A stretch of DNA of 64,000 bases from Lutibacter oricola (GTDB lineage: Bacteria > Bacteroidota > Bacteroidia > Flavobacteriales > Flavobacteriaceae): positions 1,054,001-1,118,000 of the forward strand of contig NZ_FNNJ01000001.1 of the NCBI RefSeq assembly GCF_900106565.1, written 5' to 3'. Under the pieces are notes generated by a model. It was given only the letters and a program-made list of their open reading frames with translations, searched no databases and was not told the origin of the DNA. Of the stretch, positions 35,010 to 37,599 are shown in pieces. How positions within the stretch are numbered: position 1 is the stretch's first letter; every line of letters starts with the position of its first letter. The position numbers and the translations under genes were made by a program.

Positions 35010-35939
35010 ATGAAAGAATTTTATAGCAACGGAAAACTATTGTTAACAGGAGAATATTTTGTGCTAGATGGAGCAAAATCTTTAGCAGTACCGACTACTT
35101 GTGGGCAAAATTTAATTGTAAAACCAATTAGCGAACCTCAATTAGTTTGGAAAAGCTATACAAATACTGGCGAGTGTTGGTTAGAAGCAATTTTCGATTT
35201 ACCAAAACTACGTTTATTTAGTGCCGATTTTGAATCGAATGAAGATGGAGGAAATGATAGACTGGCTGAAAATTTAATGGAGATTTTACAAGAAGTTAGA
35301 AATCTAAATCCTTCATTTTTAAATAGTGAAGAAGGATTTTTGGTTGAAACTCATTTAACTTTCCCTAAAAATTGGGGACTAGGAACTTCATCTACGTTAA
35401 TTAACAATTTAGCAGATTGGGCAGAGGTAAATCCGTATTTTTTGCTAGAAAAAACCTTTGGTGGAAGCGGTTATGATTTGGCTTGTGCTAAACATAACAC
35501 ACCAATTTTATATACAAGAAATGGAAGCGATCCAATAGTTGAAGAAGTGAAATTTAATCCTTCGTTTAAAGAGCAATTGTATTTTGTGTATTTAAATAAA
35601 AAGCAAAATAGCAGAGAAGGTATAAAACGATTTAAAGAGTTAAAAGGAAATTTAAGTACTGAAACTAAATTAATTTCAAGATTAACTGATGCCTTTGTTG
35701 ATTGTAATGATTTAAACGATTTTGAAAAGTTAATGGCTGAACACGAGCAAATAGTTTCAAAAACAATTCAATTACCTACCGTTCAAGAAACATATTTTTC
35801 TGATTATTTTGGACAAACAAAAAGTTTAGGAGCTTGGGGCGGAGATTTTATTTTAGCAACTGGTAATCAGGATTCTTCAAACTATTTCAATAAAAAAGGA
35901 TTCCAAACAATAATACCATATAAAGATTTAATTTTATAA
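35010..35939 (+). CDS. GYDIA-family GHMP kinase, candidate phosphomevalonate kinase
   Basis: This is a GHMP-superfamily small-molecule kinase of 309 residues. Visible motifs are the N-terminal SNGKLLLTGEYFVLDGAKSL, the nucleotide loop KNWGLGTSSTLINNLA (about 117-132), and GGSGYDLACAKH (about 151-162), the signature after which the GYDIA family is named. GSGYD resembles the GSGFD of phosphomevalonate kinases. The operon with mvaA, plus mevalonate kinase-like and mvaD genes elsewhere in the window, makes phosphomevalonate kinase the most economical guess. A gap in the pathway would otherwise remain. This is inference from motif and neighbourhood. Confidence 0.82.
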   Translation: MKEFYSNGKLLLTGEYFVLDGAKSLAVPTTCGQNLIVKPISEPQLVWKSYTNTGECWLEAIFDLPKLRLFSADFESNEDGGNDRLAENLMEILQEVRNLNPSFLNSEEGFLVETHLTFPKNWGLGTSSTLINNLADWAEVNPYFLLEKTFGGSGYDLACAKHNTPILYTRNGSDPIVEEVKFNPSFKEQLYFVYLNKKQNSREGIKRFKELKGNLSTETKLISRLTDAFVDCNDLNDFEKLMAEHEQIVSKTIQLPTVQETYFSDYFGQTKSLGAWGGDFILATGNQDSSNYFNKKGFQTIIPYKDLIL

Positions 35940-35945
35940 GTAGGT

Positions 35946-35956
35946 GGCTGAGCGGA
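35946..35956 (+). repeat. Partial copy of the GIY-YIG terminal repeat
   Basis: GGCTGAGCGGA, identical to the first 11 bases of the 20-base repeat at 36009, lies 63 bases before it in the same orientation. It is just after the GYDIA kinase stop codon. Confidence 0.55.
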
Positions 35957-36008
35957 TTTGCTAAAAGGGTTAAAGTTGTAATAATGGGATATTAATTAAT
36001 ATTACGGC

Positions 36009-36028
36009 GGCTGAGCGGAGTCGAAGCC
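36009..36028 (+). repeat. Left inverted repeat of the GIY-YIG unit
   Basis: GGCTGAGCGGAGTCGAAGCC, a perfect reverse complement of 36344-36363. Its ends GGCT and AGCC can pair, giving a REP-like short hairpin. It is far richer in G and C than its surroundings. Confidence 0.85.
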
Positions 36029-36037
36029 AATCATGTT

Positions 36038-36379
36038 ATGAAAAAAGGATTTGTTTACATATTAGAATGTTCTGACGGAACTTTTTATACAGGAAGTACA
36101 AATAATCTTGAGTTAAGACTAAATCAACATCAAAATGGAGTTGGAGCAAATTATACTGCAAAAAGACTACCAGTTAATTTGATTTATGTTGAAGAGTTTA
36201 CAACAATATCTGAAGCTTTTTATAAAGAAAAACAAATTCAAGGTTGGAGTAGAAAGAAGAAACTTACATTAATTAAAGATAAAAAGGAAGATTTACCAAA
36301 GTTTTCGGAATGTAAAAATAAAACTCATTTTAAGAACAAAAAGGGCTTCGACTCCGCTCAGCCAACAGAAAAAAAGTAA
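36038..36379 (+). CDS. GIY-YIG nuclease family protein, repeat-associated
   Basis: This 113-residue single-domain GIY-YIG nuclease is of the YhbQ/UPF0213 type. The strand-loop motif is FVYILECSDGTFYTGSTN (residues 4-21, with the Y...FYTG variant of GIY-YIG). The catalytic Arg is in LELRLNQHQNG (about 28), and the Glu/basic helix is in FYKEKQIQGWSRKKKLTLI (about 67-85). The last residues, KGFDSAQPTEKK, are encoded by the right inverted repeat, which suggests the repeat has become part of the gene. The family cuts DNA. Whether this copy acts on its own repeats is a hypothesis. Confidence 0.88.
   Translation: MKKGFVYILECSDGTFYTGSTNNLELRLNQHQNGVGANYTAKRLPVNLIYVEEFTTISEAFYKEKQIQGWSRKKKLTLIKDKKEDLPKFSECKNKTHFKNKKGFDSAQPTEKK
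36344..36363 (-). repeat. Right inverted repeat of the GIY-YIG unit
   Basis: GGCTTCGACTCCGCTCAGCC, an exact reverse complement of the left copy at 36009-36028. It lies within the coding region and supplies codons for GFDSAQP. Confidence 0.85.
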
Positions 36380-36387
36380 ATATAAAT

Positions 36388-37599
36388 ATGAAAAAACTTA
36401 TAATAGTTGGAGGTGGAGCAGCAGGTTTTTTTGCAGCAATTAATGCAGCAGAATTAAATCCCGAATTGGAAGTTGTTATTTTAGAAGGTAGTAATAAAGT
36501 TTTACAAAAAGTTAAGGTTTCTGGAGGAGGACGTTGCAATGTTACACACGCTTGTTTTGTGCCTAAAGATTTAACAGAGTTTTATCCAAGAGGAAAAAAA
36601 GAATTGTTAGGTCCTTTTCATCAATTTATGACCGGAGATACTATGGAATGGTTCGAAAATAGAGGTGTTCCTTTAAAAATTGAAGATGATAATAGAATTT
36701 TTCCTGAAAGTAATTCATCGCAAACTATTATAGATTGTTTTGTGGAAAGTGCTAAACAAGCAAAAGTTGTTTTAAAAACAAGTACACGAGTTGATTCAAT
36801 AGAAAAGAAAGAAGAAAAGTTTATTGTTAAAACCAATTCAGAAGATTTTATAGCAGATTATGTATTAATTGCTGCTGGAAGTAATGCCAAAGTTTGGAGT
36901 TTGGTAGAAGTGTTAGGGCATAAAATTATAAAACCAGTGCCATCTTTATTTACATTCAATATTAAAGATGAACGATTAAAGGATATTCCTGGAATTTCGG
37001 TTCCAAAGGCTTCAGTTAAAATTTTAAATTCAAAATTAGCGGAAAAAGGACCATTATTAGTAACACATTGGGGATTAAGCGGACCTGGGATTTTAAAACT
37101 TTCAGCTTGGGGAGCATTAGAATTGGCTGCTAAAAATTATCAGTTCCAAATTGAAGTAAATTGGCTGTCTAAACAAACAGAAGGAGTTTTAGAGTTCTTA
37201 AAGTCGCAAAAAAAGAAGAATGCAAAAAAGCAAGTAATTTTGCGTTCGGTTTTTGAAGATATTTCAAAACGATTGTGGTCTAAATTGGTAAAAGCCGCTC
37301 AAATTTCTGAAACTGCACAATGGGCTCAATTAAGTAACAAACAATTAGAAAATTTAGCAAGTCAACTAACTAAATGTACTTTTCAAGTCAATGGGAAAAG
37401 TACTTTTAAAGACGAATTTGTAACTGCTGGTGGTGTAGATTTAAAGGAAATAAACTTTAAACGTTTTGAAAGTAAACTTCATAAAAACTTATTTTTTGCT
37501 GGTGAAGTTTTAAATATAGATGCTGTAACTGGTGGATTTAATTTTCAAAATGCCTGGACTGGTGGTTGGATAGTTGCGAACTCAATAGGAAATCTTTAA
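36388..37599 (+). CDS. HI0933-like NAD(P)/FAD-dependent oxidoreductase (BaiN/RdsA family)
   Basis: This 403-residue flavoprotein has the N-terminal FAD-binding loop LIIVGGGAAGFFAAINAAE (residues 3-21). It also has the family motif KVSGGGRCNVTH (about 47-58), FPESNSSQTIIDCF, the central ADYVLIAAGSNA, and the C-terminal FAD contact FFAGEVLNIDAVTGGFNFQ (about 371-389). The HI0933 family is widespread, but its physiological substrate is mostly unknown; one member acts in bile acid metabolism. It starts 9 bases after the GIY-YIG stop. The 3' end overlaps the convergent LacI gene by 18 bases. Confidence 0.9.
   Translation: MKKLIIVGGGAAGFFAAINAAELNPELEVVILEGSNKVLQKVKVSGGGRCNVTHACFVPKDLTEFYPRGKKELLGPFHQFMTGDTMEWFENRGVPLKIEDDNRIFPESNSSQTIIDCFVESAKQAKVVLKTSTRVDSIEKKEEKFIVKTNSEDFIADYVLIAAGSNAKVWSLVEVLGHKIIKPVPSLFTFNIKDERLKDIPGISVPKASVKILNSKLAEKGPLLVTHWGLSGPGILKLSAWGALELAAKNYQFQIEVNWLSKQTEGVLEFLKSQKKKNAKKQVILRSVFEDISKRLWSKLVKAAQISETAQWAQLSNKQLENLASQLTKCTFQVNGKSTFKDEFVTAGGVDLKEINFKRFESKLHKNLFFAGEVLNIDAVTGGFNFQNAWTGGWIVANSIGNL

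Follow-up and report, generated by a model that had tools for sequence, protein, structure and literature searches.

What does a small nuclease gene do between two inverted copies of the same short repeat? In the window (the whole stretch of Lutibacter oricola DNA analysed here, 64,000 nucleotides), the first-pass annotation had placed a GIY-YIG gene between perfect 20-bp inverted repeats and had likened the unit to REP/RAYT systems, with a nuclease of a different family (Table 1). The two repeats are indeed exact reverse complements of each other, the enclosed gene encodes a GIY-YIG protein (PF01541, E = 1.1e-19), and the right repeat is read in frame as GFDSAQP close to its C-terminus. Within the 64 kb, the 20-mers matched just these two sites at up to three mismatches; a chance repeat was ruled out, as 100 dinucleotide shuffles gave no match. 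The partial third copy that had been reported is real as well: GGCTGAGCGG at 35946-35955 lies inside a 12-nt arm, 63 nt upstream of the left repeat. Two intact REP copies are 62 nt apart in the relative G011, and because the spacing is nearly the same, the third copy is probably a decayed REP. The left neighbour, which we take to be mevalonate-pathway-kinase-like (labelled MVK), gave no match in Pfam. The stretch 35941-35990 looked to us faintly like the start of a tRNA; a tRNA-linked gene was rejected, as no tRNA and no Rfam match were found there and none of 165 genes of the window's clade had a tRNA within 200 bp. A defence gene was likewise rejected (no match in PADLOC).

Table 1. Features of the nuclease-repeat locus; positions refer to the 64-kb window.
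Feature	Position	Strand	Remark
Left REP copy, R1 class, core GAGCGGAGTCGA	36009..36028	+	Upstream of the nuclease gene
Right REP copy	36344..36363	-	In frame, encodes GFDSAQP near the C-terminus
Third REP copy, probably decayed	35945..35956	+	Comparison with relative G011
GIY-YIG nuclease gene, 113 aa	36038..36379	+	C-terminal motif SECKNKTH (N-x-T-H)
Left neighbour "MVK"	35010..35939	+	Borders the gap in which relatives lack the gene
Right neighbour, HI0933-like flavoprotein	36388..37599	+	Synteny marker

The genome of the window (4.12 Mb, 99.6% complete) contains 44 copies of the R1 core TGAGYGNAGTCGAA, compared to none of the reversed control pattern. All seven pairs of neighbouring copies less than 100 bp apart were oriented +/- with 15-32 nt between the cores, i.e. 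as REPIN-type dimers, and the flanks of the nuclease gene have the same orientation. In the window repeats, a constant core is enclosed by a short stem of about 4 bp that covaries. When the four bases flanking this core on either side were compared among 64 distinct Lutibacter copies (39 of them from the genome of the window), stem pairs 1-4 were Watson-Crick pairs at frequencies of 0.97, 0.91, 0.89 and 0.62 vs 0.52, 0.43, 0.39 and 0.45 in shuffled copies; such covariation is the mark of a selected hairpin or cruciform. Folded as a DNA hairpin, the isolated REP of the window was no more stable than shuffles (z = 0.48 and 0.03), but a REPIN folds strongly (z = -6.4). R1 clusters were also seen in this genome at G000:C14:25861-37174 and C15:264846-266421 (same-strand copies) and at C54:67904-70381 (REPINs), and tblastn found no GIY-YIG gene in these three stretches. 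That the repeat is frequent and dispersed, as the first-pass annotation had it, proved right: the R1 core GAGCGNAGYCGA was dispersed in 29/29 further genomes searched, all of them sources of GIY loci analysed below (4-252 copies each; reversed control 0-8). Many of these GIY-YIG proteins have repeat-coded tails, as had also been supposed, with the nearest downstream R1 repeat lying inside the frame in 23 of 53 genes. The nearest flanking repeats were oriented +/- in 33 of the 53 R1 genes with repeats on both sides, i.e. the orientation was mixed.

Cognate repeats are far more common near these GIY-YIG genes than elsewhere, the opposite of what the first-pass annotation had named as a refuting outcome. 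The flanks were compared for the best 80 of at least 564 relatives, of which 79 loci were used and 74 remained after ORFs >220 aa had been left out. The threshold (best inverted-repeat score of at least 12) was reached by 42/74 flank pairs vs 0/55 control windows taken from those loci at a distance of about 1.2 kb, and a score of at least 10 by 50/74 vs 9/55. A null of mismatched gene pairs, 26% of which reached 12, was unusable because the same repeat family flanks genes across genera, and was replaced by these far windows. The loci scoring at least 12 include members of Bacteroidota, Ignavibacteriales, Cyanobacteria, Anaerolineales and proteobacteria, many of them being metagenome bins whose labels may err. 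In a set of 40 genomes, 81 solo GIY genes were picked by eye among the matches listed (without frames >210 aa, a number of short fragments and G021:C90, a frame of 168 aa) and 79 loci were analysed. Repeats of the TGAG...TCGAA type concentrate at these 79 genes (47 matches inside or within 500 bp), compared to one such repeat in 378 kb of 20 control loci round long GIY proteins (about 460-620 aa, UvrC-like by length). When flanks were compared by their best inverted repeat irrespective of its type, different GIY subfamilies had different repeats, and 37/79 genes stayed above p = 0.05. Type E repeats are found near one subfamily: 47 of their 137 copies in the 40 genomes lie within 1 kb of its nine genes, seven of which have at least one, whereas the other 72 solo genes listed have none of the 137 within that distance.

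For a comparison between clades, 265 domain matches were condensed to 248 genes and, after de-duplication at 95%, to 228. One of six repeat classes was found within about 250 nt of 132/165 genes of the window's clade (33 had none) and of 10/63 genes of the sister clade. An R5 pattern applied to the 40-genome set was too loose, as it matched all 40 genomes. The sister clade has another genomic setting, as 33/63 of its genes have a tRNA within 200 bp, compared to none in the window's clade. All these tRNAs are on the strand of the gene, 23 upstream and 10 overlapping or downstream. Tandem copies were observed in this clade as well, approximately 5 x 450 bp in L324, where the unit has a tRNA-like 3' end, and 3 x 317 bp in L277. 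The sister clade appears to be a gene family in its own right, mobile or amplifying, that is associated with tRNA genes.

Which repeat flanks a gene goes together with the C-terminal tail of its product. Tail class T1 was defined as N-x-[STA]-(S)H after the catalytic domain (SECKNKTH in the window) and the R1 loop as GAGYGNA[GC]YCGA. The R1 loop was present in a flank of 54/54 T1-tailed genes vs 8/174 non-T1 genes (several of them near-misses or truncations), and R1 occurred in 8/249 far windows. Because the tail-loop match had been found post hoc, both patterns were fixed and then tried on new genes. Of 70 held-out loci, three genes (one long frame, two at contig edges) and eight >95% identical to earlier ones were removed; in the remaining 59, the R1 loop was found with the T1 tail in 17/17 cases and without it in 1/42 (p = 6e-14). 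R1 lay on both sides of T1 genes in 39/54 discovery and 11/17 held-out cases. The T1 motif is not coded by the repeat, since the six reading frames of the 20-mer give no N or H. Another GIY gene of the window's genome, on contig C16, has R1 repeats at -675 and +97, but lacks the T1 tail. Further tails were paired with further repeats, AYRD with R2 (8/8 in discovery, 4/6 later), SKNY with R4 (10/10, then 9/9) and KKKF with R3 (7/11, then 8/10; the R3 pattern is short and weak and matches 18/249 far windows as well as 5/8 and 2/6 T2 genes); T1 alone is a true held-out test, because the tail classes T2-T4 were defined after the held-out genes had been seen.

Tail and repeat switch together on the protein tree. 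A first tree yielded two supported independent pairs only. A careful tree of 125 proteins, built on their first 74 residues, requires 33 changes of tail class and 32 of repeat class; nine independent pairs on supported branches went in the same direction at about 8.7:0 on average (p = 0.004-0.008). The tail and the downstream REP are physically adjacent on the DNA, so that recombination could swap both together. From these sequence comparisons we strongly infer that the protein tail would recognise the DNA of its cognate REP, and a functional partnership between the GIY-YIG enzymes and the repeats is nearly certain.

Y7, Y17, R27, H31 and E64, which we take to be the catalytic positions, are invariant in a 12-sequence alignment; with 71 sequences Y7 and Y17 remained invariant and R27, H31 and E64 were present in at least 90%. 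A single-sequence structure model was poor (pLDDT 57.7), and the alignment-based model of the 71 sequences (mean pLDDT 82) was used instead. Its confidence is high for residues 1-80 (block means 87-94) and drops to 50-65 beyond, where a low-confidence helix is predicted at 83-90. The nearest fold is UPF0213, followed by Slx1, and the closest solved sequences and folds are likewise those of UPF0213/orphan GIY-YIG proteins (1zg2, 1ywl) and Slx1. The two solved UPF0213 entries are titled hypothetical, without assigned function. Slx1, unlike the enzyme described here, is eukaryotic and works with Slx4; it is structure-selective, and the nearness of the folds would therefore suit a hairpin or cruciform substrate.

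Across the genus Lutibacter, a T1 gene was present among the solo genes listed in 6/25 genomes. These six contain 9-46 R1-core copies (median 34), compared to 0-29 (median 7) in the 19 genomes without a listed T1 gene (p = 0.006; several of the genomes are drafts). Of the 17 Lutibacter genomes with at least five R1-core copies, 11 have no T1-tailed gene among the solo genes listed (one of the eleven, G003, has a near-miss of the motif), indicating that copies outlive or outrun the enzyme gene. Copy numbers without a listed T1 gene were 16 in G024, 9 in G018, 11 in G005, 15 in G006 and 29 in G019; these repeats are possibly orphans left after loss of the enzyme.

Close relatives with the gene at this locus but without repeats would have contradicted the first-pass interpretation; the five relatives found with the gene near the locus have repeats too, some of them decayed. 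The gene is located between those for HMG-CoA reductase and MVK in five Lutibacter genomes; in the window's genome its place is one gene further on, between MVK and HI0933. The syntenic comparison suggested by the first-pass annotation showed no match to the window's GIY protein in the MVK-HI0933 gap in 23/23 relatives' loci with both neighbours; in G011 this gap contains an R1 REPIN without the gene. In loci of Winogradskyella and Bizionia, the tails of reading frames look like the end of MVK, and the old locus may thus be older than the genus. As the Lutibacter gene is found mostly at one old neighbourhood, movement of the whole unit looks rare. In G002, G010, G020, G022, G024 and G012 the MVK-HI0933 gap holds a different REP type (CTGAA..TTCAG class, often paired), as if the gap were a recurrent landing site. 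At L215 (G013:C99, 2814-3278), the intact HI0933-like gene is preceded by its first 30 codons in three extra copies, spaced about 180-200 bp.

The pairing extends to plasmid-borne loci of proteobacteria and to repeats described before. CGTC-tagged REPs are reported to be without a dedicated transposase by Di Nocera et al. (2013, PMC3733652), who name Azospirillum lipoferum, S. meliloti and Neisseria at species or genus level. From 32 plasmid records with a match to a GIY protein of another subfamily we analysed 14, picked by host before the flanks were seen. An inverted repeat with a score of at least 20 bracketed the gene in 10/14 loci (one of them, Sinorhizobium C101, being doubtful owing to an overlong reading frame) vs 0/14 far controls; the Photobacterium and R. 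tumorigenes loci were negative by this score, and those of Spirosoma and Planktothrix scored weakly. CGTC REPs or close variants flank the gene in 9/14 loci from alpha-, beta- and gammaproteobacteria, with CGTC-tagged flanks in Rhizobium, S. meliloti, Shinella, Neorhizobium, Azospirillum lipoferum, Aeromonas and Neisseria and a close variant in Novosphingobium and Sphingobium. In Rhizobium and S. meliloti, for example, the repeats round the GIY genes agree with the description of CGTC REPs in tag, stem, loop and tail. Proteobacterial members of the same GIY clade have flanking repeats of the kind described in PMC3733652, in species or genera named there, and some R1-core repeats of other subfamilies begin with TGTCA (e.g. 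L254, L312 and L381). The repeats of the window, in contrast, do not fit this description (CGTC/TGTC tag, 8-9 bp stem starting with AT, 4-5 nt loop, CCA-like tail); they start with a GGT-like foot and are therefore relatives of the CGTC REPs in layout, not by sequence. Covering several repeat families, CGTC REPs included, the pairing is wider than the first-pass annotation had envisaged.

Alleles with and without the gene were seen in Azospirillum and Sphingobium. In A. lipoferum AZO_p3 (L483), the gene, bracketed by two REPINs, separates sufB from sufC of the Fe-S assembly operon, and A. ramasamyi and A. oryzae have sufB and sufC without a GIY-YIG gene. In the fnrL region of Sphingobium, strains TomTYG46 and TomTYG73 contain the gene DNA with flanking REPs, TomTYG74 has only a REP-like palindrome at that site and TomTYG72 neither gene nor palindrome. 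The Azospirillum and Sphingobium differences are gain/loss alleles. A target-site duplication at the ends, a classical feature of IS and MITE elements, was not clear in the alignments of the G011-window gap or of the Azospirillum and Sphingobium alleles.

In several respects the unit resembles REP/RAYT (TnpA-REP) systems, REPtrons and REPINs: a small nuclease gene is flanked by inverted palindromic repeats, the cognate repeats are scattered as single copies and as inverted pairs, the repeat differs with the type of enzyme and the genes are low in copy number. The proposed likeness to REP/RAYT with a different nuclease family is thereby supported, by the inverted flanks, the dispersed cognate repeats and the recurrence across phyla. 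Unlike in RAYT systems, the enzyme is a PF01541 GIY-YIG protein and not an HUH/Y1 tyrosine transposase (PF01797), and the REP hairpin has no consistent GTAG tag at its foot; among the R1 copies inspected, the feet are variable or GGT/GGTC-like, and GTAG precedes the decayed window copy only, by happenstance. As these defining features, enzyme family and GTAG tag, failed when tested, the unit works like a REPtron but is not a RAYT member. The repeats might nevertheless belong to a RAYT, the GIY-YIG link being secondary. PF01797 genes are present in 18/40 genomes searched, and Bacteroidetes RAYTs of subclass 2.6 are flanked by atypical structures according to PMC6006769. The window's genome, however, has its 44 core copies without any PF01797 match, the six repeat classes are all missing within about 250 nt in the 20 PF01797 loci with full flanks (windows of 500 nt, not 600), and R1, R2, R4 and R5 are absent from all 30 PF01797 loci analysed. 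A RAYT-owned repeat was discarded on these grounds, and we regard this disfavoured explanation as exceedingly improbable. Passive capture, in which dispersed recombination-site repeats bracket a small gene by chance and without functional tie, could draw on the ability of repeats to recombine and on the arrays and tandem copies near some genes. It is at odds with a tail-loop match that held in new data and after tree correction, with the specificity of type E repeats for one subfamily and with a pairing that recurs in several phyla, and is disfavoured as very improbable.

Two further explanations grant the enzyme specificity for the repeat. A host housekeeping nuclease, i.e. an Slx1-like resolvase that cuts extruded REP hairpins for the sake of replication while the repeats spread by other means, would be in keeping with the fold, nearest to UPF0213 and then to the structure-selective nuclease Slx1, and with tail-loop matching, which fits a specialised resolvase. 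On its own it accounts neither for the presence of the enzyme's substrate on both sides of the gene nor for gene-absent alleles beside kept repeats, and we consider it improbable. The main rival is homing, in which selfish, free-standing GIY-YIG genes home into pre-existing REPs or REPINs that something else spreads. GIY-YIG is a classic homing-endonuclease family, and its free-standing members of the Seg/Mob type share the catalytic fold, are small stand-alone genes and likewise have gene-present and gene-absent alleles. The gene occupies the position of a REPIN spacer, gene-free counterparts exist in the MVK-HI0933 gap of G011 and at the TomTYG74 site corresponding to the gene of TomTYG46, many genomes hold R1 copies without such a gene listed, and specific recognition would yield a tail-loop match here, too. 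Yet the putative targets, unlike those of homing endonucleases, are dispersed palindromes that flank the gene itself, and the majority of copies contain no gene, although efficient homing would be expected to occupy them. Copies are more numerous in genomes with the gene, and each repeat family would need another driver, a role for which the PF01797 results given above offer no candidate in the window's genome or at R1, R2, R4 and R5. On balance homing into the repeats appears unlikely.

We therefore favour, with a probability of roughly 0.7, the reading that each enzyme is specific for its cognate REPs and, in a RAYT-like manner, mobilises or maintains these repeats by means of an unrelated nuclease. 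The unit would be a REPtron-like element based on a GIY-YIG nuclease, in which the gene has its own REP on both sides, in inverted orientation. Cutting would fall to the GIY-YIG domain, and the region following it (helix 83-90 and the N-x-[ST]-H tail) would read the conserved loop of the REP, probably on single-stranded or extruded DNA during replication or transcription. Cutting of cognate REPs followed by host repair or copying would spread and maintain REPs and gene-free REPINs, and occasionally the gene may move together with its flanking REPs. It also seems fairly probable that the GIY-YIG clade, over several phyla, provides the dedicated enzyme of non-RAYT REP families, CGTC REPs included, with the tail class dictating the cognate loop.

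REP elements are among the commonest repeats of bacterial genomes. To our knowledge, GTAG REPs are the only kind with a recognised enzyme, and we know of no GIY-YIG nuclease chemistry in prokaryotic repeat mobilisation. A link between GIY-YIG proteins and REPs was not found among the titles and abstract openings listed in searches of open PMC papers. The novelty rests on the class of the enzyme; since the layout copies that of a REPtron, a sceptic could see a REPtron variant. If the proposed reading is true, these units would form a new class of prokaryotic elements that spread repeats by means of GIY-YIG enzymes. The tail-loop match points to a short C-terminal module with which a compact protein would choose DNA palindromes, and if GIY-YIG enzymes are the partners of CGTC REPs, the long-standing question of how these repeats originate and spread becomes directly testable.
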